DNA from: Prorocentrum cordatum
Taxonomy: Eukaryota > Sar > Dinophyceae > Prorocentrales > Prorocentraceae
Assembly: GCA_963575745.1 (NCBI GenBank)
Contig: CAUYUJ010014613.1
Location: 309,548 to 373,547, forward strand
Direction of reading: 5' to 3'
DNA length: 64,000 bases
In this document: positions 1,721 to 60,019 of the stretch, piece after piece
Layout: every line of letters begins with the position of its first letter
How positions within the stretch are numbered: position 1 is the stretch's first letter
Notes under the pieces: model-generated
What the model was told of the DNA's origin: nothing
Databases searched by the model: none
The model's input: the letters and a program-made list of their open reading frames with translations, nothing else
Program-made: the position numbers and the translations under genes

Positions 1721-2905
1721 TGGCAGCGTTGGCGCTGATCGTGTGCATTGGGTGACGAATATTCACGATTGCATCGCAAGCTGCTGCGCTGTCTGGCGTC
1801 TTCTGGTGCATTGGGGGTCTCGGATTGAGATCCAGAAGATCCCAGCCAGGCAGCGCTTCCCTCAAGCCCCTTGCTGGCGCGAGGGCGCCGGCCATTTGTC
1901 TGCACATACGAGGGCTTGGCGGCCGCAATGATTTTCATGGCGCGTAAACTTGTTTCCGCCACAGGAAAATCATCAGGAGCAAGCCCTCGCATTGTATTAT
2001 CCTTGCTTCTTCGCCTCTTTGCCTCTTCGCCTGCCTCGCGGGTTAGTAGTCCTCGGCAAGCCGGCGATTCCGTGGAACGGCGGAAGTAAGCTCCTGGGCG
2101 TGGCTCTGCTGGCGTGGGGTTTCTCGAGGCTTACCCACGCTCCTCGTCGCCACAGCCCGCGTTCCTCGTCGCCTAGGCGTCCGTTGTCCTCGTCGCTTGA
2201 GCTTCCTCGAGGAAGCAGCGTCGAAAGCTAGTCGATTCTTGCCGCTCCTCGTCGCCTTGACCGCTGGGAGAGTCGTCCTGCCGCTCTTGCACAGCCATGT
2301 CCGCCGACTTGGGGACCTCTGGCTTGCCACGCCTACCGACTTGGAGGCCTCTGGCGCCAAGCCCGCCGACTTGGGGGCCTCTGGCATGGGTCCCTGCCTT
2401 TTCGCGGGCAAACCCAGGGTCCCTGTCTTCTCGCGGACAAGCCCAATCCCAAAGGGCTGTTCCCCTTCGGGCCTTTGCCTTTTCGCGGGCAAACCTAGGC
2501 TTCCTGCTTTCTCGCGGACAAGTGCTGCTTCGAGCGCGTGATGCTCTCTGGCGGGAGACCTCTGTCTGGCGTGCCCGCGCTCGTCGCCACCCTGGCCCGC
2601 CGAGAGGGCATCCTCAGCCACGTCCGCCGACTTGGGGACCTCTGGCTTGCCACGCCTACCGACTTGGAGGCCTCTGGAGCCAAGCCCGCCGACTTGGGGG
2701 CCTCTGGCATGGGTCCCTGCCTTTTCGCGGGCAAACCCAGGGTCCCTGTCTTCTCGCGGACAAACCCAAGCCCTAAGGGCTGTTTCTCACCGCGCCTGCG
2801 CGCCGTCTCTGGCCCACCCGCATACCACCCTCGCGGCTTTCGCCGGTGCCCTGTCCTGGCTGGGGGTCTCGGATTGAGATCCAGAAGATCCCAGCCAGGC
2901 AGCGC
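1721..2905 (+). mobile_element. Alpha-family YR element, right end (B1-A2-truncated B2), copy 1
   Basis: B1 runs from 1721 to the GATTTTC at 1930-1936 and includes GTGCATTGGG, a CCAGGCAGCGC block and a GGCGC/GGCGCC dyad. A2 starts at 1937 with the alpha palindrome and extends to about 2854. It contains a direct duplication of about 335 bp (around 2290-2450 and 2625-2780). A second, truncated piece of B (a GGATTGAGATCC dyad at about 2873-2884) follows and is cut where a gag fragment begins at about 2906. No genes. The whole block recurs at 12402-13586 with constant offset 10681. Confidence 0.65.
1930..1971 (+). other. GATTTTC-palindrome-GAAAATC module, alpha type
   Basis: Left arm GATTTTC at 1930-1936 and right arm GAAAATC at 1965-1971. 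Between them GGCG/CGCC and AAAC-TT-GTTT form a dyad. It lies exactly at the B1/A2 junction and is the candidate YR crossover site. Confidence 0.7.
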
Positions 2906-3414
2906 TCGGGGCATGTCCTCACATGGGGGCTGAAACTGTCCTCACGAAAACGTGCACCCAGACGCACCTCCTCTCCTACGTGTTCCTGCTTACCAGGGTC
3001 GCCGAGGAGCATGGTGGCGCGTTCACGGCTTACCGCTACGACCTGCTTGTCAGGAAAGCCATGGCGCAGAAAATAGAGCACGAGGAGGGGGACGTCTTGC
3101 ACTTCCTTTTGAAACTGAACGTGGATTTGGTCGGTGAGGCCAAGGCCAAAACCTCGGCGGGATCAGCCAAAACTGCAAAGTTTGTTCATTCCAAGGCGAG
3201 TGCTTCTGGGTCGTCGCAGACCGCCACCAAGGGTGGCGGCAAAGGCAATGGCAAGCCAGGCGGCAAGGCCGGTGGCAAAGGTGGCGGCGGGACCAAGAGC
3301 CCTGCCCCCAGCACGCCTCCGCGGATGAGGTCCTGGAGCCGCCCGAAGGCGGACCAGAAAAGCAGCTGGGACAAGAGCGGCGGCTGGCATGGCAAGAAAT
3401 GGGCTGATCGGTGA
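2906..3414 (+). pseudogene. gag C-terminal fragment, copy 1
   Basis: A 5'-truncated, frameshifted gag. An opening GHVLTWG motif at about 2906-2926 matches the GHLHEWG segment of intact gags at 35383 and 52487. After a frame change near 2930 the main frame carries the conserved EEHGG segment, the RKAMAQ helix and a Gly/Lys/Ser-rich basic tail ending in UGA at 3412-3414. The RT frame continues in phase after that stop. The duplicate at 13587-14095 differs slightly, for example at 3028 versus 13709. No CCHC zinc knuckle is present. Confidence 0.7.
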
Positions 3415-3668
3415 AGCCAGGCTTCGAGCGCTGGCTCAGAGTCTGGGGCTGGCAGTACCTGTTGTAGGATTTCTGAGGAGAGCGAGGGTCATCAGCAGCA
3501 GCTGCTTGGCGGATTTGCCGCTTTGAGCGCTGCTGTGAACGACCTTCTGGCCAACTCAGTTTTGCTTGGGTCTACGAGCCCATGGACTCATCTTGAGTGG
3601 TCCCTCTCCCTACCTTCCAGCGAAGAGCCCATTGCAGCGCCAGCAATAATAGTTGAGGCTCTGCGAGC
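3415..3668 (+). pseudogene. RT N-terminal fragment, copy 1
   Basis: In the same frame as the upstream gag fragment, after its UGA, a Ser/Glu-rich linker leads into a segment at about 3523-3668 that matches the N-terminus of the RT proteins in A, D and E (an HLEW motif corresponding to HFEW and HLRW). It is cut where the GA-rich repeat begins at about 3669. No catalytic motif remains. Confidence 0.55.
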
Positions 3669-4314
3669 CCGTCCAGAGGAGAGTCCCAGGGGAGTGGAGG
3701 TTATGAGGGAAGCGGGGGAGCATGCAGAAGAACAGAGGGCGGGGTGAGCCGCCATATACCCCAAGAGGGGGAGGATGTAGGAGGAGCCGTCGTCGTCGGA
3801 GTAGGAGGAGGAAGAGGAGGAGCAGGAGGAGGAGCAGGAGGAGGAGCAGGAGGAGGAGGAGAGGAAGATAAGGAGGAGGAGATGGAGGACTGCGAGGACG
3901 AGGAGGACGAGAAGGAGGAAAAGGAAAAGGAGGAGGAGGAGGAGGAGGAGGAGGAGGGGGAGGGGGAGGAGGGAGGAGGAAGAAAAAGAGGAGGAGGAGG
4001 AAGAAAATGGCGAGCTTGGGGGCCTCTTGGCGGTCCCGGGGGCCTCTTGCGTATCTCGGGGGGCCTCTCGTGGCCTCTTGGGGGTCTCTTGGGGGCCTCT
4101 TGGAGGCCTCTTGGGGGCCTCTTGGGGCCTCTTGGGGCCCTCTTGGGGCGCTCTTGGGGCGCTCTTGGGAGCCTTCGAGGCGCTCTTGGGGCCATCTTGG
4201 AGGAGGTCTATCAAAGAAGGGGGGGTCCCCAATTAGCGCTGCCCCTCTAGAGTGCCTCGAATCGCTTCTTGGGCCCTTCTTGAGGCCAAAATCCTTCCAA
4301 AACCTAGGAAAATC
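3669..4314 (+). repeat. R repeat, partial copy (GA tract plus CCTCTTGG units)
   Basis: The repeat starts with a segment shared by all copies, then a strongly purine-biased GAGGAG tract (about 3780-4010), then many GGCCTCTTGG words. It is interrupted at GAAAATC (4308-4314) by element A. Fuller copies are at 14346-15841 and, inverted, 32197-33757. Long open frames through it (Glu-rich, Ser-rich or Pro-rich) are repeat-derived and not called. Confidence 0.7.
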
Positions 4315-4946
4315 TCCTCGGCGGCCTCCGCAGTAACAGTGCCACAGAGAGGTGCCCTGCTGCGTGGTTGCGCCGCTCTTGGGGTCACGCCACCAAGCCC
4401 GCGATCACAACCACGCGACCACCGAGAACACACACCTCCACCGAGGGCGGGAGGGCGGGGAAAACGGAAGACGGAGAAACGGCCAGCGCGGGCACAGCCG
4501 CACGGAGCCCACCACCACCTGCGGCCAACAGGACTGCGCGGAGCAAGAAACCCCCAGGCCACACAGGGGCCTCCAACGGCAACGCCGCCACGGCAGCCTG
4601 GCCGAGAGCGCCGCCGCCGGACAGGGCAGCCAGGCCCAGGACACACGACAGACACGACCAACAGACAGACGACAGCGACCGACGGACGGCAGAGCAGCAG
4701 CAGCAACAGCCGCAGCAGCAGCAGCACGCCGCACCAGGCGGCCAGTCCGCAGCCCCCCTGGGAGGCAACCAAGACGTGAGCACCCAGACCGGGCAGCTCC
4801 AGCCCTTTCGTCAATTTTCCCACCCATGAAAGTGCACACACTTTAAGGGTTGAGAAAATCTCCTCGGCGGCCTCCGCAGTAACAGTGCCACAGAGAGGTG
4901 CCCTGCTGCGTGGTTGCGCCGCTCTTGGGGTCACGCCACCAAGCCC
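4315..4946 (-). repeat. B1-A2-B2 terminal repeats of element A
   Basis: An 86-bp sequence is present twice, at 4861-4946 (B1) and 4315-4400 (B2), each bounded by GAAAATC on its low-coordinate side. Between them lies A2 (4401-4853). A 160-bp segment of A2 (4460-4619) recurs at 12230-12389 upstream of gag. This is the A1...B1A2B2 pattern of split direct repeats. Confidence 0.75.
4813..4860 (-). other. GATTTTC-palindrome module, zeta type
   Basis: Read on the minus strand: GATTTTC (4860-4854), then an imperfect palindrome with ACCC/GGGT and AAAGTG/CACTTT arms around a TGTG loop, then GAAAATT (4819-4813). It lies at the B1/A2 junction of element A. Confidence 0.6.
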
Positions 4947-5074
4947 AATGCTACCAAGAGCGTGCACACCACCCACAAGCGGACGCGGCACAGCCTGTCC
5001 GCGCACCAGCGAGCCCAGATGGATGACGACGATGGCTTTTTGCACAGTAACCGCTGCCCTCTGCACAAACAGCC

Positions 5075-6538
5075 TCAAGCACTGTCTGACGAGCTGGAAT
5101 AATTCGCCAACCAATTACCGGCTTCGAGCCCCCCACGGGCCCTCGCGGACGCGTAACCAAACGCTGTGAGACCACGCCAACCGCCAGAATAAAATAGAGC
5201 TGTCGGGCCGCCCGCTTTTAAAGCGTCCGAAGCCCAGCCCCGCCGGAAAGCATGCGTACCCCAAGCTGCTGGCGATTCCAAACCTGCAGCGGCTGCTCCC
5301 AATTTCAGGAGCGCCAGCGACTCGGAATACCTGATATGGCTGAAAGGCGGACGCACTTGCGCCTCTAATTGCTCGAGGGCGCACACGCCGCACATGCTGG
5401 GGCCGAGGACCTCGCAAATGCACTGCCTTGTAACTACCACCGGCTCTTTGTAACACTTCCGTTTCATGTACGTAATCGAACAAGAAAGTTTGCCACGCTT
5501 TTTTCTGAACGCCACAGGCGCCAGCCCTGTGCCAATGATCAGTGTCTCGCTATATCGTAAAGTAAAATGACGAGACACAGCCCACGACATGGCCACGTCA
5601 CGCTTGCCTGCGCCCACAGCCCATTCATACAACAAGCGCGTATCTTGCACAGAAGCCCGCATCCTCGGACGGCGAACACCACGCGCTGTGGATTTCTCTG
5701 CACCACGGACCAACCGCGAGGTGTCGCTCAGAGCGCCCGCCTCACATTTGAGCCAAGCCAACACGGACCGCAAGTGCGATAAATACTTCGACAAAGAAGC
5801 ACCGTCGCGAAACAACGTGGCGAAACAGCACAACGATGCCTCAGCAGGCGGCCACGGCGGCTGCGCTGTCAGAGCCGCCGCGTGGCCCCACAATTGCACA
5901 GCTGATGCGTACGCCCCTGCGCTCTTGCGCCACCCTTGGAACTCCATCCAGCAAGCCTGCTGCGCGAACTGAAAGCTAGAAGTATTGTTGTCTCTCGCCC
6001 GTGCCAATTCCTCAGTTGGCGTGCCTGCCACTGGAAGCGGCGCAGCCGCCTGCTTGCCCAGAATACGAATGGCATCTGCCAGAACCGAAGGAGCAGGCGG
6101 CCTGCGGAGTTTTGTCGCTTCACAAATCATGGCCAAAGCGGTCGCTGCAGCCTCGACAGCCGCGGCCGGACTGCCTGCGACGCTGGCTGGCGGAGCAGGG
6201 GACGTGCATTTTGAGCGCAAGGCACATCGCGGATCACCTCTGAGATGCGCTATGGCCGCCCGAGGAGCGCTATGATGGACAAGCTCCCGGTTGGCCACTG
6301 CCATACAAAATTTGAGAAAATATTGAACGATGGCTGCGTCCAGTGTTTGCAAAGCCGACCACACTTCTGCCGCTTCACCCACGGTTAATCCGCCGAAGTC
6401 GCTCGGCGCCACGGCCCCTTCTTTCTGCAGAGATTCAGCCACGGCCCCCGCGCCAGGAGCTGGGAAAGGTCTTTTCGCGGCCAGAACCGCCCTTTCGAGC
6501 AACGCCCGAAACTCTTCCGTAACAGAGTTATGCGGCAC
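5075..6538 (-). CDS. Tyrosine recombinase of element A
   Basis: 487 aa and uninterrupted. The N-terminal 190 residues are variable; from about residue 200 the protein aligns with the YRs of C, D, E and G. The core shows the catalytic set: Arg at about 328 (LRYSE), a beta-hairpin Lys near 361 (KRKCYK), HAFRR giving His about 429 and Arg about 432, Trp about 454 (SGGW) and nucleophile Tyr about 462 (FGYA). A Cys cluster CxC-x7-CxxC lies between the Lys and the HxxR. The expected role is strand exchange that integrates a circular cDNA at TTTTC-type sites. The frame differs from that of the upstream RT gene, so it probably has its own start, placed at the first ATG. Confidence 0.85.
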   Translation of the reverse strand: MPHNSVTEEFRALLERAVLAAKRPFPAPGAGAVAESLQKEGAVAPSDFGGLTVGEAAEVWSALQTLDAAIVQYFLKFCMAVANRELVHHSAPRAAIAHLRGDPRCALRSKCTSPAPPASVAGSPAAAVEAAATALAMICEATKLRRPPAPSVLADAIRILGKQAAAPLPVAGTPTEELARARDNNTSSFQFAQQACWMEFQGWRKSAGAYASAVQLWGHAAALTAQPPWPPAEASLCCFATLFRDGASLSKYLSHLRSVLAWLKCEAGALSDTSRLVRGAEKSTARGVRRPRMRASVQDTRLLYEWAVGAGKRDVAMSWAVSRHFTLRYSETLIIGTGLAPVAFRKKRGKLSCSITYMKRKCYKEPVVVTRQCICEVLGPSMCGVCALEQLEAQVRPPFSHIRYSESLALLKLGAAAAGLESPAAWGTHAFRRGWASDALKAGGPTALFYSGGWRGLTAFGYASARARGGLEAGNWLANYSSSSDSA

Positions 6539-6783
6539 ATTTCTCTCGGACCCTTCTGCTCCAGACGGCGCGCCAGGGACAGCATGGCGACGCTGCCATT
6601 GTTCTCTGCTCTCGTTCAGGAAACGCAGCGCCTTTCAAAACGAAAGCGCGCGAATGCTGGATCTGAGCCAAAAGCTACGGACAACGCACTGGCGAACATC
6701 ATGCACGCACGCATCCGCAGCAAATGCTTCAATCTCACATAACGCATGCATTTTTTTCTTCCTCGGTAGCCCGCTCGATGCAC

Positions 6784-8889
6784 TCACACAGCCCACGGGA
6801 GATTTGACGGCCATGGCCATTCTACCTGTCTGAAATGTAAACTCTCGAGCGTTGCGCGGCCCCCGCGGGCCTTGCTCGCACGGGTCGGGCCGTCCGCCAA
6901 GTTCAACGCAGATGGCACATAGTGAGCATGCATGAGAACACTCGCCCGCGCCAGCTCGAACCAGACCGACCCCAATACTGCATTAAAATCGGCCTGTCTA
7001 GAACATCCGCGCAGCAGGGTCTGCAACGCGGTAGTGTTGTCAATGAACACCACCAGCTCAGGGTGCTCCACGGCTTGCTGCAAGAAGAAATGCACGCCAC
7101 ACAGCGCAGCGAGAAGTTCCCACAGCGTGACCTGCGTGCGTCGGGGCAACGCCCATGACCATGCTGCGGCCGGGACAGCCGTCGCTGCCCATACCCGACG
7201 GGCTGGTGTCACGAGCACAAACGCAAGCTGTCCCCCGCCAGTTGCATCCGTGTATAGAATGCACCGCTGAAGGCACGGCTGCCGGAAACTAGCAAAAGCC
7301 GACGGGGTTGAGCACAAATATCGCTCCCACCACCGTAGTGCACTGCGCACCCGGTGCTTCAGCTCTGCGCGGCCGCATTTGCCGTGCCAAAACAGCGGCG
7401 CGAGAAATACTCTCGCGCCCCTGCCAAACACTGCCGCGGCACCCCAGCTTAAACGCCCAGCCAATTTCGCCGCCCCTGCGGGGGACAACGAATTAGCCTG
7501 CAAAGCCTGACGAATTTGAGCTAGCCACTTTTCTTTCTTATCCTCGCCGATCCAAAACCAAATGCCGTCTGGGCAAGCTTTCGCTACAACTCCTAAGACG
7601 ACTGTTTGGTCGGCCTCTGTGACTGCTTCTGCGTCGTCCAACCTCCACCCAAGCAAATCGACTACGAGCTTTCGCGCCAAATTTGCAGATCCTCTAGGTC
7701 CTGCATGCGCCCCGCTGTTTGCAGTATCCAGGGCCACATCGCCTCCGAAAAGATCGTCCACGAAACGCGGGTACACGACCAAAAAGACGACAGCCAACAG
7801 GGCCTGGACAGCACTGCCAAAGCGATGCCACGCAAATACAGACGCAGCCGACCCAAACGGGCACGAGAGAAGCTGCAAACCTCTATCACTGCGCTCTGCT
7901 TCAGCCCAAGTTGCAACGGCAAATTGCAGATGCTCGCTCCGAATCGGCAGCGTTTTAAAAGCCGACTTGAAATCATCTTTCCTGAACAGGAAAGTAGCGC
8001 CGGGATGGCCACCTACACACGCCCGCGCAACGCCGACTAAAGTGTCAAGCGAATCGTGGTGCATCTCCTCGGGGATCGCTGTGGCGCTGTTCACGCCGTT
8101 GTCAGTGAAATCGTCTATCAAGCGCACCTTGCGACGCTTACGGCCGCCCTGTTCCTGCCAACCTTCGTCGACAGGGAATCGAGCTGTTAAAAGACAGCGA
8201 TGGCGAGAAAGCGAAATCCAGTGAGCCTTACGCTCTGCTACTTCTTGCAAGCATTTGTTGCGGAACGCTTCTGCAAGTTCTAGGTCAGGCACTATGGAAC
8301 GACGAACCCTGTTCAAAGTGCAGGCGTTGCGTTCATCAAAATTTTGATGGAGTTCCTCCACCGTCGTTGCGGAGACACACGCAGCCCTGGCAGGCTGAAT
8401 CCCGCTCGGCTGTAAATTTCCTACGATCGGGAAACCGAAAGCTAAGCTATTGACAAGCTCGGCGTCTGGCCAGCTGATATATTCTAGCATCTCCCTCAAC
8501 AAGAAAAGATTCTTTTCAGGACCTAAAACGCTCTGGCATTGCAAAGGCAAACGAGAAAACGTTTGCCGCCAGAGTGGGTCCGTCACGCGCTTCCTTTCCT
8601 CCCAATGAGAGACAGCACTTGCGCGGTGTTCATGCAGTTGTGCCGGCGACATGTCGGCAGCTTTGCACAGCGCATTCTTTAAAATCACAGGCAAGCAAAT
8701 GCCCGGGACGACAAGTGGCAACGCGAGCGCCCACTCAAAGTGATCAGCCGGGCACATCGCTGCACACTTGGCCTTGTCAGAATTTAAATCGCGCACCGCA
8801 GCGCAAAACTCGTAAAGGAAATCTTTACGTTCTGCGGAGCGCGCAGCAGAATCGGGAACGCCGGTCTCCAACCGGACGCGTCCATCCAA
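6784..8889 (-). CDS. Reverse transcriptase-RNase H of element A
   Basis: About 700 aa. RT motif A is KDDFKSAF (catalytic Asp about 306) and motif C is FVDD (Asp 378-379); a RLIDDF block precedes motif A in every copy. The RNase H domain shows the acidic set: Asp about 548 (YTDATG), Glu about 591 (WELLAA), Asp about 617 (FIDN) and Asp about 666 (LADGPTR). No protease, integrase or methyltransferase domain is visible. The frame has no ATG before its conserved N-terminus (the listed start is a TTG) and is in phase with gag, separated only by UGA at 8949-8947. It is therefore more likely made as a gag-RT readthrough product than from its own start. Confidence 0.85.
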   Translation of the reverse strand: MDGRVRLETGVPDSAARSAERKDFLYEFCAAVRDLNSDKAKCAAMCPADHFEWALALPLVVPGICLPVILKNALCKAADMSPAQLHEHRASAVSHWEERKRVTDPLWRQTFSRLPLQCQSVLGPEKNLFLLREMLEYISWPDAELVNSLAFGFPIVGNLQPSGIQPARAACVSATTVEELHQNFDERNACTLNRVRRSIVPDLELAEAFRNKCLQEVAERKAHWISLSRHRCLLTARFPVDEGWQEQGGRKRRKVRLIDDFTDNGVNSATAIPEEMHHDSLDTLVGVARACVGGHPGATFLFRKDDFKSAFKTLPIRSEHLQFAVATWAEAERSDRGLQLLSCPFGSAASVFAWHRFGSAVQALLAVVFLVVYPRFVDDLFGGDVALDTANSGAHAGPRGSANLARKLVVDLLGWRLDDAEAVTEADQTVVLGVVAKACPDGIWFWIGEDKKEKWLAQIRQALQANSLSPAGAAKLAGRLSWGAAAVFGRGARVFLAPLFWHGKCGRAELKHRVRSALRWWERYLCSTPSAFASFRQPCLQRCILYTDATGGGQLAFVLVTPARRVWAATAVPAAAWSWALPRRTQVTLWELLAALCGVHFFLQQAVEHPELVVFIDNTTALQTLLRGCSRQADFNAVLGSVWFELARASVLMHAHYVPSALNLADGPTRASKARGGRATLESLHFRQVEWPWPSNLPWAV

Positions 8890-8946
8890 CTCCGATTCGC
8901 TGTCGTCTTCCCCGGGTGCGTCGCTATCGGAGCTGTCGTGACCAGC

Positions 8947-10227
8947 TCACTTCTTGTACTGCTTCTTCCAGCCCTGCCACTGGCTCGACTTGCCCCAGGA
9001 CGCAGCGTCATCGTCTCGCTGCCGCTTCGGGGGCCTTTGCGGCGACAGCGTGTTCCGGTTGCCCTTGGGCTCGCCCTTGTCGGCGCCCTTGGGGAACCCC
9101 GCCTTGCCGGTGCCCTTGCCGCCTTTGCCGCAGGCGCTGGAGCTGCCAGACGCAACAGACTTAGCAGTGAACTTGTTGAGTTGCTCGCCACGCTGCTTCA
9201 CCTTGTCCGCTGCCTTTCGCACCATGTCGTCGTCCAGCTTGCAGAAGAAGTCGGACACGCTCTCGTCGCCCCGCTCCAAAGAGCGAGCCATGGCGCGACG
9301 CTGCATCACGTCATACTGATAGCACACTCGGACGCCGCCATGCTCCTCTGTAATGTGGGAGAGGTTGAAAATGTACGCGAGCAAGTCTGTCTGAGTGCAC
9401 ACTTCCATGAGCACGCACTTGATGCCCCATTGGAATATGTGACCGACAAAGGTAGCGAAGCCCATGTAATCCAACTTGAGTTCGTTTTCCCTGGCTTTCT
9501 TTTCGTCCAACACTGCTTTCAATTTATCTTCAAGAGAGCCGATTGTCGGGACGACCTGCACCACTGGCGTGCGCGACCACTCGGGCCTGTGGTGCGTTTG
9601 GAGGCATTCCCCGTCTGCACTGCCCACGTACCGCCGGCCTTTGGAAGCGGCGATTTTTCCCGCCTGCTCAAACTTCGCCAGATTCTCTTCGGAGGGCAGG
9701 CCATCTTGTGGAAAGTTCTCGAGGCCCACCTTGGCCAAGCGTTTGGCTAGGTCAAAAGAAAGACCGAGCTTCGCAGGCGGCGTGACAGCAGCTGTTTGCG
9801 CATTGACAAACTTTTCCATCGCCTGCTCCAAGCCAGAGGACGTGCCAGAGGCAGCCGGCTGCTCCTTCATGTCTTTGGCCTGACAACGCTTCTGCACACG
9901 AAGTGCCAAAGCCATCATGGCAGGTGTGAGTGTGAACTCCTTCCAGCCTTCATCTGAAAAGGGTTTGTCCCCGACTGTCAACCCGGTGCGCAGACTGTCA
10001 CGGATGAACTCGTCTGCGAAATCCTCTGCGTGCACGGATTGAACCACCTCAGCCATGGCACGCGCAACACCAGTGTAGAACCGGATGTCGTGTTTTGCCC
10101 GGGCGTTCTCGTCCACGCACGCCACGAACTCCACGAACGCGTTCCGCGAGTCCACGGACGCACCAGCGAAAGCACTTTCGGGCAATGTGGCCAGATCTGC
10201 CACGATGTCTGCAGGAGTGTACGCCAT
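8947..10227 (-). CDS. Gag-like protein of element A
   Basis: About 426 aa from the ATG at 10227, chosen because the following MAYTP lines up with MSFSP (35383) and MAFSS (52487) in other copies. Conserved blocks are an N-terminal FVEFV helix, a central RRYVGSADGE region, a FATFVGH-QWG segment, an EEHGG motif followed by a RRAMAR helix, and a Gly/Lys/Ser/Arg-rich basic tail likely to bind RNA. There is no CCHC knuckle. Assignment as gag rests on position before RT and the basic tail. It ends in UGA at 8949-8947. Confidence 0.7.
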   Translation of the reverse strand: MAYTPADIVADLATLPESAFAGASVDSRNAFVEFVACVDENARAKHDIRFYTGVARAMAEVVQSVHAEDFADEFIRDSLRTGLTVGDKPFSDEGWKEFTLTPAMMALALRVQKRCQAKDMKEQPAASGTSSGLEQAMEKFVNAQTAAVTPPAKLGLSFDLAKRLAKVGLENFPQDGLPSEENLAKFEQAGKIAASKGRRYVGSADGECLQTHHRPEWSRTPVVQVVPTIGSLEDKLKAVLDEKKARENELKLDYMGFATFVGHIFQWGIKCVLMEVCTQTDLLAYIFNLSHITEEHGGVRVCYQYDVMQRRAMARSLERGDESVSDFFCKLDDDMVRKAADKVKQRGEQLNKFTAKSVASGSSSACGKGGKGTGKAGFPKGADKGEPKGNRNTLSPQRPPKRQRDDDAASWGKSSQWQGWKKQYKK

Positions 10228-10399
10228 GCCGCTCTCTGGAAGAGGCAAAGAACCGCACAGACACTCAACTGGACAATGCACTGTTGCGACACTCGAGCCT
10301 CAAAGGCAACAGGGACGCAAGACAGCCGCACAGCCAGTGACCGGCGCTGAGACGATGTGCTTGCTGTGTCAGGGAAATGAGCAGAAGACCCTCCCGCCT

Positions 10400-12389: not shown

Positions 12390-12401
12390 ATCGTCGCATC
12401 G

Positions 12402-34040: not shown

Positions 34041-34051
34041 CGGGGTCGGAT

Positions 34052-40263: not shown

Positions 40264-40326
<63 letters not shown>

Positions 40327-46127: not shown

Positions 46128-46168
46128 TCGGCCCTTAAATCACTTGTTATTTTATGGGCGGGAAAATC
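46121..46168 (+). other. GATTTTC-palindrome-GAAAATC module, epsilon type
   Basis: Arms at 46121-46127 and 46162-46168 around GGCCCTTAAAT ... ATTTTATGGGC. An alpha element in minus orientation is inserted at the right arm. Confidence 0.7.
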
Positions 46169-47318: not shown

Positions 47319-47359
47319 ATTTTCATGGCGCGTAAACTTGTTTCCGTCACAGGAAAATC
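47318..47359 (+). other. Left-end module, alpha type
   Basis: CATTTTC (47318-47324, from the epsilon target), the alpha palindrome and GAAAATC at 47353-47359. Confidence 0.65.
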
Positions 47360-49991: not shown

Positions 49992-50027
49992 CATGATTCA
50001 TAAACTCGTTTATGCTGCAGGAAAACC
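49985..50027 (+). other. Left-end module of element E, gamma type
   Basis: TTTTTTC at 49985-49991, perfect CATAAAC-TC-GTTTATG palindrome, CTGCAG and GAAAACC at 50021-50027. Confidence 0.7.
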
Positions 50028-50732
50028 GTGAGGAGCAGCCCCACGTGTGTTTGCCTCCACTCCTCAATTCCTGCGCGCTCAATGCCTGCGCAGCGGGCTG
50101 CGGTGTCGGCGGCCGGCGGTTTCTGCGCGAAGCGGCGGAAGTATGCTCACCTTGCTCTGTTCGTGTGTACTCTGGTGCGGTCTCGCATGGCGGTTCGCCC
50201 GCGCTGCTCGGGTCTCGTCTGCTGGGCCGATCGTGTCTCGCAGTTCTTCTGTTGCTGCTCCCGTGCGCTGGCTCCATGAAGCCAGATCGAGAATGCTCGC
50301 TGATAAGAGCAGCGGCAAAACAAAACTCGCTGACAGCGGCTGCACAAACAAGACAGGCTCCCTGATAGGAGCGGCGCGTCCGAAGCTCCCTGAAAGGAGC
50401 TGCGCCTGCGTGCTCCCTGATAGGAGCCAGCGGGCCCAGCGCTCCCTGAAAGGAGCTGCGCCTGCGTTCTCCCCGACAGGAGCGGCGCCCTAAAGCTCCC
50501 TTTCGCGTGTTCCCTGACAGGAGCAGCGGCCGAAAACTCCTCGACGGGAGCGGCGCCTCAAAGCTCCCTGATAGGAGCGGCGCTTCAAAGCTCCCTGACA
50601 GGAGCGGCCCCCCAGAACAGAAGTTCGCCGAAGGGGGCGGCGCCCAATGCTCCCTGAAAGGAGCTGCGCCTGTGCGCTCCTCGACAGGAGCGCTGCCCGC
50701 CAGAGCTCCTTCTGTGCTCCCCGACAGGAGCA
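49992..50732 (+). repeat. A1 of element E with short-hairpin array
   Basis: 741 bp matching 57807-58547. The right half (about 50380-50732) is an array of about a dozen GCTCC-(CTGATA/CTGAAA/CCGACA)-GGAGC hairpins spaced by GCGGCGC-like linkers. Confidence 0.8.
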
Positions 50733-51131
50733 GCACCCCCAGGCTCCCTGAAAGGAGCTGCGCTTGTGTGCTCCCAGACAGGAGCGGCCCCCCCAAAGCT
50801 CTATAGCAGGAGTCGCGCCTGCGTGCCTCCTGGGGCGGTTCCGTGGCGCTGCGCCGGCGCGCTCCCCAGCAACAGCCTGGCGGCTGTCTGCCAATTTTCT
50901 GCGTTCTGCGTTCTGGTGCGCAGGCGCGCGCAGATTCGCAATCTGAGCGCTTCCGGGCGTCCGAGTGCCCAGAATTGCATTCTGTGCTCGTTTCTGCGCT
51001 CTGGTGCCAGGCGCACCCTGTTTCGCAATCTGAGCGCGACTTGGCGCTCTTGGGCGCCCGCGCGCCCAGAATTGCATCCTGAGCTCGTTTCTGCGTTCTG
51101 ATGCCAGGGCGCACCCAGATTCGCAATGTGA
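50733..51131 (+). repeat. Palindrome array in the element E leader
   Basis: Further hairpins, then alternating CAGATTCGCAATCTG and CAGAATTGCATTCTG units to about 51131. No gene. Confidence 0.65.
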
Positions 51132-51531
51132 GCGCGACTCAGCGCTCCTGCGCGGCGGCCCGTGGTAGGAGCGGCGCCTCCGAAGCTCCGTGAAAGCACC
51201 TGCGTGCTCCGGAAACAGCCTGGCGGCTGTCTGCCAGCCTGACTTGCATTCGGAGCGCAACTGCGCGCTTTCTGGCCCTGGCGGGTCCAGATTCGCATTC
51301 TGACGCGCAGGTCGCGCATTCTGTGATGCCGTCCTCAGATGCGCAGTCTGTGCGTGGATCCGCGGAGCGGTGCGCTCACCGTGAATTGCACATGGAACGA
51401 GAATCTGCGAATTCCGGCCGCGCCTAGATTTCAGCGCTGAAACTGTCAGTGCGTGGAAGGCGGATAGCAGTTTGTGCCATTTGGGCCTCGCGAATGTTGT
51501 GCTTCGCGCAATTGGGGTTTCGGGGTCGGAT

Positions 51532-51594
51532 GTGTGCAGGCGGCAGAAGCTAGTCCTTGATGGGGGGGGATTGGCTAACCCCCCACCTGCACAC
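51532..51594 (+). promoter_or_regulatory. Conserved leader stem-loop 1 (element E)
   Basis: GTGTGCAGG/CCTGCACAC outer stem, G8/C6 inner stem around ATTGGCTAA. Confidence 0.6.
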
Positions 51595-52168
51595 AACGGG
51601 GGCGGGTGTGTCTGCCCGCCCCCGACCGACCCCGAGACCCTGCGTCCAATGGCGCACGTGGTCTAAAGTCCATGCTGACGCCTTTTCACTAACGTACTCA
51701 GAATTCAATTCTGGTGCGGCTCGTGGAAATCTGGCCCAGGAGGCTAGAAATTGATGCAGATTCCGGCGGGATTTCATCCATGTCGGATTTCGCAAGTCGG
51801 CCGTCCAGGTCGGCTGATTTCTCAAGACTGGCTCTAATCAGCCATTCTGCTGAGCTGCAGTCCACCGCCGAGGGCTGCAAGTAGCGGGGAACGTGCGTAA
51901 GCCTTCCCGCGAACCGTCCAGGAGGACAGCATCGCCCAAAACGGGCGCTCTACCCATCAATCAGTTACCCTCCATCCTCTCTCGTTGACTCGACAGCGAA
52001 TGTGTGGGCGCAGCTGTGGGCGTGAACTGGAATAAATAAAGATCCAGACAGGTCGGAGCAGACGCCGCGTGCCCGCGGATTGATGTGGGTGCAGCCGCAG
52101 ATGCAAATACTGAGCGGAGATGCTCAGTTCGATGGTGGGGTTTCCCTGTTGTCTGTACTGCCGCGCCC

Positions 52169-52222
52169 CTATGACGCCCTCTGCTGGCCTGGATGGCGCA
52201 TTCAGGTCGCAGAGGGGGATAG
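52169..52222 (+). promoter_or_regulatory. Conserved leader stem-loop 2 (element E)
   Basis: CTCTGC/GCAGAG enclosing CCTG/CAGG around GATGGCGCATT, followed by GGGGGATAGG. Confidence 0.55.
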
Positions 52223-52486
52223 GGGGCGGAAGGGTTCTTCTGCTCTTTCCATAAACAGCAACTCGCCTTCAGCGCCGGTCACGTGACGTGCGCCGCGGGC
52301 GCGCAGCCATTTCTGGCAAGTGCTTTCACATGAAGATATTCTGTCGGAAGGACTGCCATTGCTGGAGAGTTTGGTCATTACCTGTCGCATTTTAGGCTCA
52401 AGTGAACCACTCCGGCTGGGATTGAAATCCTTCTTCGCACTGCAGCGTGCTCCGCAAGTGTACGTTGCAATCCAGCCGTGCCCACC

Positions 52487-53829
52487 ATGGCTTTCTCTTC
52501 CGGCGACGTCTCTGCCATGATTGCCACTGCGCCGAGCGGGGCCTTTAACAAGGCCAAAGCTGACCAGATCCGCGATTGGGTCGACTTCGTGCTGAATGTC
52601 GAGCCCAACGCGGCGGAGAAACACGACCTGTTCTACTACGTGTCGGTGGCTCGCCTCTTGGCGGAAACGATCGGCAGCACCTCGCTCTCGGATTTCGAGG
52701 ATCCACACATGCGCGAGATGATTAAGGCAGCAATTGTTGTGAACGATTTGCCGTATGCCGCAGAGCAGGGTCCAGCATGGAAAGCCTGGAAGGTTTCGCC
52801 GGCACAGGTCGTCTTCGCACTCAAGGTGCAGACCAAGTGCGCCCAAGCTGCACCACCCGCCCGCTCGGCTCCAGAAGCCGGCGCTGGGTCGAGCGACGTG
52901 GCAGGAATGGCCGAAGCTGTGAAACAGCTAGCAGAACTACAGACCCAGGCGCTCCAGAAGGGCAAGCCGAAGGGACTCAGCTTCAAGCTTCAAGACAGGA
53001 TCGTTGAAGTGGGCTTGCAGAATTTCGATAAGACACCCTCCCGTCCGAGGAAATCTTGGCGAAGTTCGAGGCCGGAGCCAAGATCGCCAACGACAAGGGC
53101 CGGGCTTGGATCGGCTCTGCAGAAGGCGAAGATCTCCGCGATCATCACCGCCCAGCATGGAGTCGCACCCCTCTCGTCGACGCGGTCGTGGGCGACGGCT
53201 CGTACGAGGGTCGCGTGAGACAGAGTGCGGCCGCCAAGCGCGGAAGCGCTTGGATCGATAAGATGGATTATGTGAGCTTCGCGACCTTCATGGGGCATCT
53301 CCACGAGTGGGGTTTCAAGGTGATCCTCGCGAAGGCGTGGAGCATGGCGGACTTTTTCTCCTGCGTGCATATTATGATCCGCATCGCTGAGGAGAACGGC
53401 GGGGTCAGGACGGCGTTTCAATACGACGTCCTCCAGCGGAGGGCCATGGCCAAAGCGCTGGAGAGGGGCGAAACCGATTTGAGCAGGTACCTTACAAGGA
53501 TCGATGTTGATCTCCTGCGCACGGCCAAAGACAAGGTGGATAAACGCTTCGCGGAGCTCGCTCGTGCATCTGGCGCGCCCAAGGGTCAGTCCAAGGGCCA
53601 GCCCAAGGGCGCCTCCAAGAGCTACGGCGACGGGGGCAGTCATGCCTCCAGCAGCGCATCCTCTGGCGGCAAGGGCGGCAAGAGCGCTAAGGGCGACGAC
53701 CGGCGCGTGCGTTCGCCGCCCGCGCGGCACAAGGGCAGCGCTGGTGGCGGCCAGCAGCGTCGGTCGCGCAGCCCGCGCGCTGGATGGCAGCAGTCGGGCC
53801 AGTGGGACAAGCAGTCCTGGAGCAAGTGA
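52487..53829 (+). pseudogene. Gag-like gene of element E, one frameshift
   Basis: Starts at ATG 52487 in a CCACCATGG context (an in-frame ATG lies at 52478). It matches D gag throughout (DWVDFVLNVE, FATFMGHLHEWGFK, EENGG, QRRAMAKAL, RSRSPR tail). A single-base frameshift near 53036, in the segment corresponding to LPSEE, breaks it. It ends in UGA at 53827-53829 with the RT frame continuing in phase. Confidence 0.8.
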
Positions 53830-55987
53830 GCGGTCACGCCGCTCGCTGACAGTGCCGACGGTCAGCAGTCGGAAAGCGAGTCAGGGGACAATGAGCCCAT
53901 GGAGCGCTCTTCGGCTCGTCCCAGCGCTGATTTTAAGCATTCTAAAGCTGGGCTGTCACATGTCGGCGCGCGTGTACATAGCTTTCTCGCTCGCGATGAT
54001 TTGCGTCGCCTAGATCCATGGGATCACTTGGAGTGGGCGTCGGCCTTGCCTGTTTGCGCAGAAGTTCCTCTTTTGCCGCACTTTTTGGAAAAAGGCTGCG
54101 ACCGCGTGACAAGATTGACCCCTGCAGAATTGCACTCGGAAATCAGCGCTTGCTTACTGGTCGGAGAGGAAGCGAGTGACGGAACCCTGCTGGCAACGCG
54201 CGTTCGCGCAGCTGCCAGCGCACTGCCGAGCCCCGGAAAATTTTTTTCTCCTTAGCGAGATGCTTGAGTCCATCAGCTGGCCAGACGCCACGCTGATTAG
54301 CAATTTAATGCACGGTCTTCCTCTTGTCGGCTTGCTCCCAGCGAGTGGGATGCGCGTTCCGACAGGGAACGCAGCGCCGGAGGTAACCAAAGCTGCTCTA
54401 TTGGCCACTGCGAGCGTTCAGAACAGACGCATTTTGCGGCGATCGTCTTTGCCACTCGGGATGGACAGATCTGTCTGCGAAGTTTTTGCTTCTGCATGCG
54501 ACCGGGAGGTCGCGGACGGCAAGGCTAGAATGCGTCCATTGAACATAGAAACTTGTGTTTTAACCCCGAGATTCCCAATCGTGCAAGGTTGGAAAACCGT
54601 AGGCTGGGAATCGTTTCCCAAAGTTAGATGCATCGATGATTTTTCTGCGTCGCGTATCAATGAAGGCACGCAAGTATCCGAGAAGATGCTTCCCGAAACG
54701 CTAGACTCACTTGTAGCGCTGGTGTAGAAGCTCACAAAATCAAGAACAATGCGCATTCGTTGGCGCAAAGATGATTTTGTGCAAGCCTTCAAGACACTAC
54801 CAATATGCAGCTCTCACCTTCCATTGGCAGTTGTCGTGTGGCAGGAGGCGTTGGCTAAAGACCAGTGTCTCCAGCTCCTGGCAATGCCCTTTGGCTCTTC
54901 CGCCTCCGTGTCCGCCTGGGAGCGGTTCGGTTTGGCAATTCAGGGCGTGCTTGCGCAGATTTTCCTAGTGCTGTACCTTCGCTTCGTCGACGATCTGTTT
55001 TCGGGCGACGCGATGGAAGAGCAAGTAGATGTTGGCGGAGACCCTCTGACGGGCCCTGCTGGCACTGCCAAGCTGGCCAGGTACGTAATTTCAGATCTTC
55101 TCGGCTGGGATTTGGATGCCGCCAAGGCTGTCACAGAACAGCCATCGGCCACCATTCTCGGCGTCGGCGTTCGTTTTGATGACGCCCGGCAAGAGATAGT
55201 TTTTGACGTGGGTCCGGAGAAGCTCGAGTTGTGGAGCTCCCAAATCGTCAGGGCCCTCAAAGCGGGCGCGTTGCCGCCGGCAGAAGCGCAGAAGCTGGCC
55301 TTGCGTTTGAGTTGGGGTGCCAGCTCAGTTTTTGGCAAGGGGGCGCGTGCTCCGCTGGCAGCTTTGTTCTTTCATGGCGCAGGCCGCACCGGCCGTCTCA
55401 CTGCGAGGACGAGGCTCGCGCTCATATGGTGGCGTAAGTTTTTGCAATCGCCGCCCTCGCGGCGTGTGCCGCTGCAACTCCGCGAGCGCCAGCGGTGCAT
55501 TTTGTACAGCGACGCAACCGGCACTGGCATGATGGCGTGGGTGCTGCACGCTCCTTTCGCCAAAGTCTGGGCCGCCGCTAGTGTGCCCGACAGCGCTCGC
55601 CAATGGGCACACTGGCGAAAGAACCAGATCGGCACCTGGGAGCTGATGGCAGCGATCTGCGCATTGAAATGGATTTTAAGCACTGGCCAAGCAGATCTCG
55701 AGATCATCTGCTTCGTCGATAACAAAATCGCATTGGGTGCGCTTGTGCGAAGTTGCTCGCGGAAGTCCGATTGGAATTGTCTGATTGGCAATCTGTGGCT
55801 TCTCGTCGCCGACAAGGCGCATTTCCTGCATCTTTGGTATGTGCCTTCGCGTTTGAATCTCGCAGATGCCCCCGCACGGCCGTCTGAGAAGGCAGAGCAA
55901 ATTGCCGAGCTGCAGGCGCGAAATTTTCAACGCGTTGAGTGGCTGTTTCCTGCCGGATGCACCCTGGGGCGGCTGAGAAAAAAGTGA
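53830..55987 (+). pseudogene. RT-RNase H of element E, frameshifted and with a stop
   Basis: An acidic linker in phase with gag leads into the conserved N-terminus. Frameshift near 54160-54180 and TAG at 54725-54727, just before motif A (KDDFVQAF). FVDD is intact. RNase H shows YSDATG, TWELMAA, FVDNKIAL and LADAPARP. The 54749-55987 part is open. The frame stays open past its UGA (55985-55987) into the YR gene. Confidence 0.8.
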
Positions 55988-56065
55988 TACAATAACATGT
56001 GCACAGGTTCTGATTGGAGGAAGAATGCCATGCGCCAGTCTTGCCTTCTCCGCAGTATCGGCTCA

Positions 56066-57575
56066 ATGCTTAGTTTTGTAAACGAGAGCCGAAGCAAGCG
56101 TCTGCGTGCTGAAGGTGCCCCGCCAGGGCAGCCGAGCGATGTGAACTCGGTTTTCGCTCGCGTGCTGCAGGGCGTGGCTGGCGTGAATATGGTTGATATC
56201 TCTGGTCTTTGCGAAGCTCTGGAGAACGGTGGCTTCCAGCATTTGTCTGATTTGGGCGGTTTGGAAGCAAATGAATTGGTAGATCTCGTCCCTGCGTTTT
56301 CTGGACAGAACGTTGCGCTCGTCAAAGCCTTCTTGGCGCAGTGTCAGCGCCAGGCCGACTGGGAGTTAGCGGCCGCGGCGCGCCGACAGGCAACGCTCAC
56401 CGAGGCTGCCTCGTCCTCTTCAGGGGCTGGGGCAGAGGCGCAAACCCGAGTTGCGAGCCAAAGCGATCCACGTGAGGCAGCCAACGACGAGCAAGGTCGT
56501 GCTGGCTTGATCCTGCTTGGTGAATCGCGCCGTGCTCGCGTTGTTCCCGAACCTCCTGTGCTAGCAGCCGCGCTGGCGGCCGCCGCCCGCTGCAATTGCT
56601 ATCCAGGGGCGGAGCCAATTGGCAGGCCCCGTGAAGAAGTCAAACGTGCACGTCGCGATGTTCCTGGCGGAGATCATCTCCATCTCCACACTCTGTGGGT
56701 CGAGTTCGCTGCCTGGTGAAAAAGTGCTCCACAATGCGCTTCCGCCGTCCGCTTGTGGGGCGAAGCTGCCAGGGCCATTTCGGCGCCCAGCTGGCCACCG
56801 TCCGAATCTGTTCTCAATGCCCTTGTGGGGTTATTCCGTAATGGGAACAGTCTGCAAACATATGTTTCTCATGTTCGCAGTGTGCTCTACCTATTGCAGG
56901 CTCCTCTCGGTGTTCTCGACGACGCAGGAAGGCTGGCCAGGGGCGCCGAGAAAATTACCCGAGACGTATTCAGGAGAGTGAAGATCCGGGCGACGGCGGA
57001 AGAAACCAAACTCATCCGCAAGTGGTGCGCTGAAGCTGGATATCCGCTGTTGGCGGCGTCGTGGGTGATCGCTCGCCAATTTTGTTTGCGTTACTCTGAG
57101 TTGCTGCTCCTCGGGTCAAATGTTGTGACATTCCGCTTCAGCGGCGATGAACGCAAAACCTGTGTCATTCGTTTCGCGCATCGCAAATGTTACAACGAAC
57201 CGTGTGAGACAACCAGACGTTGTATTTGTCAGCTGCAAGGGCGCTCCTTGTGTGGTGTCTGCGAATTATTCTCTGTAGGAGCAGCAGTGTCGGTCCCCTT
57301 CGCGAGCGTGCAATATGCCGACGCTCTTGCTGTTCTCAAACTTGCAGCAGCCGCTTTGCAGTTGCGGAGTGCTGCGGCCTGGGGCACGCGCGCTTTCAGG
57401 CGAGGCTTTGCCGACGAGGCGCTCCAACAAGGAGGGCCCGCAGCTTTGTTTTTGCAGTGGTGGTTGGAAGGGCGTGGCGGCTTTCGGTTACGTCAGCGCC
57501 CAAAGTCGCGGTGCTTTGTCGGCGGCCGAATGGCTAGTTGACCACTCTGACTCAAGTGACGGCGAGCAAGCCTGA
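56066..57575 (+). pseudogene. Tyrosine recombinase of element E, with stop and frameshift
   Basis: ATG 56066 (MLSFVNESR). A TGA at 56717-56719 replaces the Arg of a conserved WRKSA segment, and a frameshift near 57440-57455 precedes SGGWKG. LRYSE, RKCYN and FGYV are present. HxxR reads RAFR, so His is lost. CxC-x7-CxxC is intact. Confidence 0.8.
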
Positions 57576-58547
57576 CTGTGGCATCGTGTGCGTGGGGTTG
57601 TAAAACCAATAGGAACAGGAAGCGGTCCTCACGATGTACCCCTGTCAGGCGCTGCCGCGCAGTCCGTCGCCTTCTGGTGCATTGGGAGCCCAAAGGGGCG
57701 GGTTCCCATAAGGCTCCTGCCAGCCAGGCAGCGCCGTTCGCACGCCCTATGCTGGCGCAAGGGCGCCGGCCATTCTACAGTGGGCCTGGCTACCGCAATG
57801 GTTTTCATGATTCATAAACTCGTTTATGCTGCAGGAAAACCGTGAGGAGCAGCCCCACGTGTGTTTGCCTCCACTCCTCAATTCCTGCACGCTCAATGCC
57901 TGCGCAGCGGGCTGCGGTGTCGGCGGCTGGCGGTTTCTGCGCGAAGCGGCGGAAGTATGCTCACCTTGCTCTGTTCGTGTGTACTCCGGTGCGGTCTCGC
58001 ATGGCGGTTCGCCCGCGCTGCTCGGGTCTCGTCTGCTGGGCCGATCGTGTCTCGCAGTTCTTCTGTTGCTGCTCCCGTGCGCTGGCTCCTTGAAGCCAGA
58101 TCGAGAATGCTCGCTGATAAGAGCAGCGGCAAAACAAAACTCGCTGATAGCGGCTGCACAAACAAGACAGGCTCCCTGATAGGAGCGGCGCGTCCGAAGC
58201 TCCCTGAAAGGAGCTGCGCCTGCGTGCTCCCTGATAAGAGCCAGCGGGCCTAGCGCTCCCTGAAAGGAGCTGCGCCTGCGTTCTCCCCGACAGGAGCGGC
58301 GCCCTAAAGCTCCCTTTCGCGTGTTCCCTGACAGGAGCACCGGCCGAAAACTCCTTGACGGGAGCGGCGCCTCAAAGCTCCCTGATAGGAGCGGCGCTTC
58401 AAAGCTCCCTGACAGGAGCGGCCCCCCAGAACAGAAGTTCGCCGAAGGGGGCGGCGCCCAATGCTCCCTGAAAGGAGCTGCGCCTGTGCGCTCCTCGACA
58501 GGAGCGCTGCCCACCAGAGCTCCTTCCTGTGCTCCCTGACAGGAGCA
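57576..58547 (+). repeat. B1 and A2 repeats of element E
   Basis: B1 (about 57590-57806) has CTGGTGCATTGGG, CCAGGCAGCGC and GGCGCAAGGGCGCCGGCC, ending GGTTTTC. A2 57807-58547 copies A1, including the hairpin array. Confidence 0.75.
57800..57841 (+). other. GGTTTTC-palindrome-GAAAACC module, gamma type
   Basis: Both arms carry a matched change relative to the other families (GGTTTTC at 57800-57806 and GAAAACC at 57835-57841) around CATAAAC-TC-GTTTATG. Confidence 0.75.
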
Positions 58548-59152
58548 CCCGCCCTGCCGATTTTCCTGCCCCGCAAACCACTACGCGGTTTGCAGGCTAT
58601 TCGGTATGCGAGGTCGCACCTGCGGGCGCAGGCGCGCCCACAATCGCAATGAAAAGTGATTCCGAGTCCGGGCACAGGCGCGCCCTGAATCATAATCGGA
58701 GCGCGATTCCGCGCAGGCAGGCGCAGGCAGGCGCAGGCGTGCCCGGCATCGCAATCGGAGCGTGAATCCGCGTGTTCGGCCGCAGGCGTGCCCCAGCGCT
58801 CACAATTGTTCCAAGATTTGAATCAGGCACGCCAAGCGTTGCAATCGGATTGCGATTTGCGTGGTTGCAGGCGCTGGCGCGCCCGGAATTGCAATCAAAG
58901 TTCGATCGCGTTCGGCCCGAAACAACATGCAACGGTAGGCAGGCGTGCCCGGCGCGCAGGGGCGCTGGCTGTCCTGCGCGCGTTGCGCTCCGGCGTCTGG
59001 TGGGCCGCGCTTGCCCATTTGTGAGCGGCGAACCACACAGTCGTCGCGTTTGCATGCGTTGGGCGCGCAGAGTTCGCTGCAAAACTTGACTCCCGCGCGT
59101 GCGCCATTCGCGTGGCTCAGCGCCGCCAGCCTGGCCACGCTGGAAGCATTGT
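58548..59152 (+). other. Junction and GC-rich palindrome repeats; no gene seen
   Basis: GATTTTC at 58559-58565 is followed by CTGCCCCGCAAACC...GGTTTGC, a delta-like palindrome in inverted orientation without its second arm. 58620-58920 has GCGCCCGGAATTGCAATC-type palindromic units. No protein signature. Confidence 0.5.
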
Positions 59153-60019
59153 GCCCGTGGAGAAACTCTAGTGAGGTCCAGTCCGGCGGCGCCTTGTTTC
59201 CCGCTGGCCCAACGGCGGCGCGGGAGCGACGACCCACGCGTGGGGATGAAATATGGTAGCCCGCAAAATTTTCACAGCACCCAAATCGCGTAGCGATTTG
59301 AGGGGCAAGAAAATCTTCAGGGCGCACATGGGTGCGCGTCTCTGCCTTTATGCGCCTTGGCTTCTATGCCTCGGTTGGAAAAGCGCTTGGCCGCGACGTG
59401 TGTTAGTCTCACTCGCCAGGGCTGCTTCGCAGCAGGTGGCTCCTCTTCCGCTTCCTCCCTCGGTTGGTCGGTTGGTTGGCTTGGCGCTGGTGGCGTGCGC
59501 AGTGGCTCCTCGCAGCGACTCGTGGCTCTCTGCTGGTGCTCCTCGTTGCCACTTCGCCGCCGCTCCTCGTCGCCATTGCTTTCCCGCGGTCGGCTTCGAT
59601 GACATCGCCGCAACAGCCCCGAGAGAGGCTGCTCTGCAGGGTGGAACGCCCTGGCGCGCGTGGCCCGTGGCAGCGCCGCAACAGCCCCGAGGGGGGCTGC
59701 TCTGCAGGCGGAACGTCCTGGCGCCAGCGGCCCGTGGCAGCGCCGCGACAGCCCTGAAGCAGGCTGCTCTGCAGGGCGGAACGCCCTGGCGCTCGTGGCT
59801 TGTGGCAGCCCTGCAGCGCCGCAAGGGCGGCTTGTAACCTGCCCACATCCACCCGCTTGTTCTGCTTTTTGGGTTGGGTCGACGCTCCTGCCAGACGGGC
59901 CCGTGGAGAAACTCTAGTGAGGTCCAGTCTGGCGGCGCCTTGTCACCCGCTGGCCCAACGGCGGCGCGGGGGCGTCGACCCACTTGTGGGGCGAAATATG
60001 GTAGCCCGCAGAGATTTTC
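59153..60019 (+). mobile_element. Right end (B1-A2-B2) of YR element K
   Basis: B1 59153-59273 and B2 59899-60019 are 121-bp copies starting GCCCGTGGAGAAACTC and ending in ATTTTC/GATTTTC. A2 begins at 59274 with a delta palindrome and contains CTGCTCTGCAGGGCGGAACG repeats (about 59620-59800). The right flank begins at 60020. The left part of this element was not identified. Confidence 0.7.
59267..59315 (+). other. Module, delta type (B1/A2 of K)
   Basis: AATTTTC at 59267-59273, CCCAAATCGC/GCGATTTGAGG palindrome with GTA loop, GAAAATC at 59309-59315. Confidence 0.65.

Follow-up and report, generated by a model that had tools for sequence, protein, structure and literature searches.

A 64,000-nucleotide stretch of the genome of the dinoflagellate Prorocentrum cordatum (GenBank assembly GCA_963575745.1, contig CAUYUJ010014613.1, positions 309,548 to 373,547; hereafter the window, its first letter being position 1) is a nest of probable tyrosine recombinase (YR) retrotransposons with split direct repeats, in the order A1, open reading frames (ORFs), B1, A2, B2. 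Recurrent within it is a module in which the arm GATTTTC, a centre that varies between families and the inverted arm GAAAATC follow one another. This module is probably the circle junction and integration site of these elements, with a short internal complementary region. What appears to be new is that the putative circle joint of split-direct-repeat YR elements is palindromic and that bases covary across it in most of the families here. Why does this matter? End closure and target choice in such retrotransposons appear to be understood mainly from models. With families side by side, nested insertions and readable empty sites, the exchange can be narrowed to five bases, and the five-base core together with its paired bases becomes a precise handle for locating element ends in element-rich genomes. 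A complementary region at the joint would connect the DIRS1 and split-direct-repeat layouts and make the circle model testable.

An earlier note on this DNA tied the modules to the ends of YR elements, and that is where all 14 of its sites lie, 10 at the joint between a repeat B and a repeat A and 4 at the left edge of an A1, where the bases preceding TTTTC are those of the target (coordinates are in the table; the letters of elements and of repeats are independent). A second copy of B is present in the window for 8 of the 10 joints, those at 1930 and 12611 sharing theirs with the copy at 46 kb; none was found in the window for the joints at 40874 and 57800. The split-repeat layout is complete in element C, while element D has B1-A2-B2 plus an A1, elements G and E have B1-A2-B2, and elements A and B have A1 and A2 only. 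At a B1-A2 joint the sequence reads B-GATTTTC-A, just as it would where the two ends of a circular copy meet.

TTTTC is the start of repeat A and (GA)TTTTC the end of repeat B, and a TTTTC stays with the target on either side. Inserted copies read target-TTTTC-A at the left and B-GATTTTC-target at the right, the two bases before TTTTC being the target's on the left and B's on the right. All 9 right edges have TTTTC (8 as GATTTTC, that of element A as GCATTTTC), a count that is partly circular since most of these edges were first picked by the word GATTTTC. Independent support comes from a repeat partner for C, D, E, G, alpha and J and from an empty site for F and A; the edge at 374 has neither. 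The B2 of element G ends at a satellite GATTTTC, and this satellite is present without G at 15639 and 32385. The left edges, picked by homology to repeat A and counted without G and E, whose left edges are not in view, have TTTTC in 5 of 7 cases.

The nesting permits empty sites to be read: an RT (reverse transcriptase) gene fragment, L, holds element A, which holds D, which in turn holds C and, in minus orientation, F. Excision of C from the YR gene of D with one TTTTC kept restores WGTQAFRRGFANDALRFGEPSALFWSGGWRGLAAFGYATAQ (the frame ...SALFWSGGW...FGY), matching YR relatives, and excision of F from the arm of D's A1 gives complete identity with D's A2. Excision of A from the RT gene of L, with the core taken from the right edge (the left copy reads TTTTT), gives a single frame across which the relative P0012 aligns (46% over 80 residues, gapped), though with only about 7 residues to the left of the joint. 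No target duplication extends beyond the short core, for the C and F empty sites hold one GAAAA/TTTTC and that of A fits one TTTTC. Together, the element edges and the three empty sites locate the exchange to the TTTTC of the left arm. Might right arms be preferred as targets? Two of the 6 mapped insertions (F, and alpha in beta) against about 15 of 185 TTTTC sites are not convincing, the TTTTC total having been counted and the remaining figures being our own arithmetic.

The modules are real. The earlier claim of at least twelve is borne out by the presence of all 14 of its sites, 8 with exact arms, 5 with one mismatch and 1 with two, and chance, which had been raised as a check, does not account for them: GATTTTC-N15-45-GAAAATC has 8 exact matches in the window against a mean of 0.00 in 100 dinucleotide shuffles, none of which gave any. 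When up to two arm mismatches are allowed, the window yields 20 rows, namely the 14 sites and 6 unrelated ones; two more A1 copies, starting at 49988 and 17068, had been overlooked. There are 36 occurrences of the arm word GATTTTC/GAAAATC where 5.8 would be expected, a roughly six-fold excess (the maximum in 100 first-order shuffles was 16), and the word is rank 1 of the 1076 strand-merged seven-mers having five A/T. As to the claim that the arms lie 28-35 base pairs (bp) apart, the limits stand but not the continuum between them. Inward TTTTC..GAAAA spacings peak at 28 (n=7), 34 (n=2) and 35 (n=7), with at most 2 at each other spacing from 0 to 120, and outward-oriented ones have no peak in the window; the module spacer is 28, 34 or 35, discrete values.

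The centre of the module and its right arm belong to repeat A. This right half repeats the B-A junction imperfectly and in inverted orientation; its pairing partners are the first bases of A and, via the arm, the core together with the last bases of B. As the outer bases of the left arm come from B, a complete hairpin requires a joined B-A and is not formed at A1. Complementarity to both ends takes in the B end in the non-beta families and the A start clearly in 6 of 9 centres, weakly in 3. Arm pairing is near perfect in all modules, and where the gamma arm is altered it is altered on both sides. The last two bases of B and the two bases of A past the right arm read AT/AT in alpha and at 40874, GA/TC in C and D, AT/GT with one G.T in gamma, AG/CT plus a third pair, C/G, in F, and in E AA/TT with B1 and GA/TT, one G.T, with B2. 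Of 16 such positions 11.5 are paired, where permutation of right sides over left sides gives 7.0 (exact p = 0.0009 with 8 rows, 0.0056 with 6 and 0.083 with 4), the rows however being related by descent, so that the p values are indications and not probabilities.

How well does the centre itself fold? The family-specific palindromic centres of the earlier note survive in part: centres do vary by family, but a clear palindrome is present in 6 of the 9 distinct ones, the 6 that when folded alone beat 95% of their own shuffles. Pairing within the centre is strong in C and D (delta) and in E; F, G and J also have it, and it is weak in alpha, 40874 and gamma. Whole modules do better against shuffles of their own letters (8 of 9 at ≤0.006 and one at 0.048), the arms contributing most. 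Compared by rank with 61-base pieces taken from the window, the C and D copies are extreme (0.0005-0.04) and the remainder lie at 0.11-0.81; a strong hairpin was for this reason rejected as a defining trait. Centre families track the clades of the YR in the five elements compared, identity of which is 60% between A and B, 67% between C and D, and 33-55% between G and the rest, a correspondence predicted by co-evolution and by plain descent alike.

By what route might such an element move? Reverse transcription would yield a copy whose ends the internal complementary region would bring together, as proposed for DIRS1, and the element's YR would then exchange strands inside TTTTC with a genomic TTTTC, the palindromic centre possibly being recognised as well by the cognate YR. 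In the DIRS1-like model a 3-bp circular junction, its ends mostly NTT, recombines with identical genomic letters (PMC3266345), and the TTTTC core fits that pattern. Common to both is the short T-rich junction core shared with the target, without a longer target duplication; the complementary region here may likewise answer to the internal one that in DIRS1-like elements matches both termini and overlaps at the core (PMC3266345). The terminal repeats here, though, are direct (A1/A2, B1/B2) rather than inverted, and the complementary region is far shorter than in DIRS1, imperfect, directly beside the joint and inside A. Bringing the ends together is most likely the role of the right half, comparable to the internal complementary region of DIRS1, with simultaneous recognition by the YR possible; end joining, recombinase binding and priming are all putative functions of the hairpin.

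Among split-direct-repeat elements, PAT, Ngaro, VIPER and SymbioDIRS resemble those here in their A-ORFs-B-A-B repeats, RT-RNase H and YR. PMC5890265 gives the order A-coding-B-A-B for SymbioDIRS of the dinoflagellate Symbiodinium, and PMC8547959 reports lone A-B repeats for Cafeteria Ngaro, with which element F may be compared. Those here differ in having the B-A joint within the left arm of a palindrome and in the covariation between B and A. The word start 'palindrom' is absent from the main texts of the examined papers on YR retrotransposons and mobilomes, as far as these were available and with PMC5890265 and PMC8547959 standing outside that check, and 'DIRS' does not occur in the available portion of the dinoflagellate genome review PMC11453091.

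Several observations, in addition to the circularity of the right-edge count, the shared descent of the covarying rows and the few residues to the left of empty site A, weigh against so tidy an interpretation. Neither element A nor element B has a recognisable B2 in the window, and the two flanks of element B do not match one another. Both exceptions among the left edges are awkward, A reading TTTTT and J being without the core (at 44784 the target is joined straight to TCGGCCC). Folded alone, the centres of alpha (0.058), 40874 (0.386) and gamma (0.106) are not beyond their shuffles, and, delta aside, folding energies fall within the ordinary range of the window. The beta modules (G, J) are unpaired past the arms, with the outer arm base G.T or unpaired, while E pairs less well with B2 and has a mismatched outer arm base with B1. 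Lastly, the YR is without a meaningful match in Pfam or the PDB, its membership resting on motif order, and comparison of its profile with XerC, XerD, FimB and FimE puts R and HxxR in register without being significant.

YR sites of the loxP/FRT type have inverted arms with the crossover between them, the spacer in known simple YR sites being 6-8 bp. Inverted arms, a conserved layout and family-specific centres that track YR clades are just what the modules would offer if they were a classical double-stranded site, with the arms as two recombinase-binding sites and the crossover in the 28-35 bp spacer, where the earlier note had inferred it. That inference has to be given up, for the edges and empty sites put the exchange in the left-arm TTTTC. 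Also at odds with such a site are the intact palindrome and right arm in A1 and A2 of C, and in those of D once F is discounted, and a spacer far in excess of those of the simple sites; the likeness stops at the inverted arms, and this possibility is one to which we attach very little weight. A milder version keeps the palindrome as a duplex operator for a YR dimer, or as a control site, with exchange at the neighbouring TTTTC core. It accords with retention of the dyad layout while sequence shifts with YR clade, yet by itself leaves unexplained the covariation between the end of B and the flank in A, and we regard it as somewhat unlikely. Plain miniature inverted-repeat transposable elements, the 3′ end of a long interspersed element (LINE) or a Helitron end were rejected, as the modules connect B and A segments that are each repeated on their own, and sit beside RT and YR genes.

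If the pairing across the joint counts, is it pairing in duplex DNA at all? The hairpin could work in RNA or complementary DNA (cDNA) only, either by self-priming of the second strand at the minus-strand 3′ end or as an RNA packaging or end-forming signal. The start of repeat A coincides exactly with the stem base, and a minus-strand 3′ GAAAA would be expected to pair with the right arm and on extension make B-like bases; set against this, the DIRS1 model matches ends to internal copies (PMC3266345), and we think this explanation improbable. In another reading, reverse transcription would supply a single strand for recombination. Integron attC sites have conserved inverted 7-base boxes, a variable self-complementary centre and exchange at one box. 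The modules share this plan of short inverted boxes, variable centre and exchange at a box and differ in recombinase, host and mobile unit. Covariation of the arms across B-A, which makes the hairpin a property of the joint, would also be expected were the junction hairpin recombined as folded single-stranded DNA. However, strand bias is not marked, the top strand being stabler in 11 of 15 modules with a difference of ≤2.2 kcal/mol, and the alpha and gamma hairpins are weak; recombination in that form we hold to be rather improbable. Its extension, by analogy, to a folded cDNA joint of which only the structure and core box are conserved, exchanged with duplex TTTTC and convergent with integrons, is if anything slightly more doubtful. 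A circle junction with its own complementary region, recombined at TTTTC, is what we favour over these.

Coding content bears on what kind of element is involved. There are two diverged coding copies, at about 34-41 kb and 51-58 kb, alignable at the protein level. In the frames of the first, an RT with FVDD and an RNase H can be made out by eye, as can a protein in which LRYSE, THAFRRG and GGW..FGY follow the order of a YR. Each protein search confined its scoring to the 8000 candidates with most words in common; at E≤1e-3 there were 25 relatives for the RT and 14 for the YR, and tblastn of these 39 found RT and YR on G (minus), C, A and B, two YR halves on D and the RT fragment that is L. FVDD or YVDD is present in 15 of 16 aligned RT rows, with RNase H motifs in addition, and RVT_1 is matched at E≤1 in 8 of the 16 (best 7.5e-5, below the Pfam cut-off in three rows where shown). 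The YR alignments have R, HxxR, W and Y in order, the box-1 R being invariant in 14 rows and H and Y nearly so. None of the 21 distinct window ORFs scanned, a selection from all frames, reached a Pfam cut-off, nor did any match a Pfam methyltransferase, a trait on which Ngaro and PAT differ.

Preservation varies. Element A is 95-97% identical to P0001 in RT and 95-100% to P0026 in YR, and its YR gene contains a run of 62 T. Element B carries stops or frame changes in both RT and YR, its segment 54128-55429 being 95% identical to P0006 and 56030-57484 to P0029. In element C the RT is 83% identical to P0007 and a gag ORF was not traced; in G, where A1 was traced only as a piece at 12230-12389, RT is 74% identical to P0019 and YR 43% to P0035. 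A viral contig collection gave no relatives with the RT profile, the YR profile or two DNA patterns; a genome contig collection gave none with the RT profile, and with a DNA pattern four bacterial matches, about chance level by our own arithmetic. PDB sequences offered nothing useful for the window proteins, no Rfam family matched at the gathering cut-off and no tRNA gene was found in the window, which is 62% G+C with many tandem repeats.

Table. Elements, element parts and modules in the window (RT, reverse transcriptase; YR, tyrosine recombinase)
Feature	Position	Strand	Details
Element A, YR element holding nested D	17068..41116	+	A1/A2 98% over 232 bp
Element A parts	A1 17068-17302; gag-position ORF 35332-36702; RT-RNase H 36703-38834	+	
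Element A parts, continued	YR 38976-40595, interrupted by poly-T 40265-40326; B1-A2 junction 40874; A2 to ~41107		
Module at B1-A2 of element A	40874..40915	+	placed by A1/A2
Element D, YR element holding nested C and F	17533..30847	+	B1/B2 123/130, A1/A2 118/122
Element D parts	A1 from 17533; YR pieces 24406-24975 and 29851-29964; B1 30085-30214; A2 from 30210; B2 30718-30847		
Module at A1 left edge of D	17531..17579	+	right arm is the F insertion site
Module at B1-A2 of D	30208..30256	+	
Element C, YR element	24971..29850	+	A1/A2 455/461, B1/B2 120/120
Element C parts	A1 24971-25425; RT 25425-27074; YR 27552-28946; B1 29088-29207; A2 29203-29657; B2 29731-29850		
Module at A1 left edge of C	24969..25017	+	inside the YR gene of D
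Module at B1-A2 of C	29201..29249	+	
Element F, lone A-B unit	17573..18389	-	inserted within the right arm of the A1 module of D; the empty site matches D's A2 at 96/96
Module at A1 left edge of F	18343..18391	-	
Element B, YR element	49988..58554	+	A1/A2 738/753
Element B parts	A1 49988-50739; RT 53899-55954; YR 56030-57572; B1-A2 junction 57800; A2 57802-58554		
Module (gamma) at B1-A2 of element B	57800..57841	+	arms GGTTTTC/GAAAACC; placed by A1/A2
Element G, YR element	4308..10281	-	B1/B2 93/93
Element G parts	gag-position ORF 10281-8947; RT 8922-6793; YR 6640-5078; B1 4946-4854; A2; B2 4400-4308		
Module (beta) at B1-A2 of G	4813..4860	-	
Element E, right end	59153..60019	+	B1 59153-59273, A2, B2 59899-60019; B1/B2 111/122; A1 not found within the window
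Module at B1-A2 of E	59267..59315	+	
Module (alpha) at B-A junction	1930..1971	+	B same as 46 kb copy
Module (alpha) at B-A junction	12611..12652	+	segmental duplicate of 1930
Module (alpha) at B1-A2	46620..46661	-	B1/B2 55/55; B2 ends at 46162 in right arm of beta module 46121
Module (alpha) at A1 left edge	47318..47359	+	adjoins reverse-oriented beta A
Module (beta) at B-A junction, element J	46121..46168	+	right arm joined to alpha B2 end; second B copy 46794, 84/101
GATTTTC, likely the right edge of B in a further element	374..380	+	similar to B of E; without partner copy

Near the end of B another feature recurs. The non-beta B repeats have a box like GCGCCGGCC, or a variant of it, whose end lies about 30-38 bases ahead of the core and which often has an inverted partner upstream, as in alpha (GCTGGCGC..GCGCCGGC). 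Such boxes lie at 1855-1936, 57724-57806, 29127-29207, 30134-30214 and other B ends, a similar one in element A being further upstream; the box is possibly a second recognition site.

There are also signs of possible rearrangement. From 46121 to 48300 alpha and beta pieces are ordered as if a segment from near 46754 had been inverted, with an alpha B2 (minus) and an alpha A1 (plus) bordering two halves of one beta A region. Adjoining the A2 of element B, at 58559-58600, is a decayed delta-like module in minus orientation. At the other side of that element a frame at 49700-49985 resembles by eye a LINE-type reverse transcriptase (KVFVKLDLSNAFNTLD...) and ends at the element's left edge, no continuation having been noticed to the right of the element. 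An array of 12-, 72- and 144-base repeats at 41752-42723, apparently unrelated to the modules, has long open frames on both strands, and G is bordered on either side by a copy of one 2.6 kb segment, the two being 98% identical (1716-4314 and 12396-15024).

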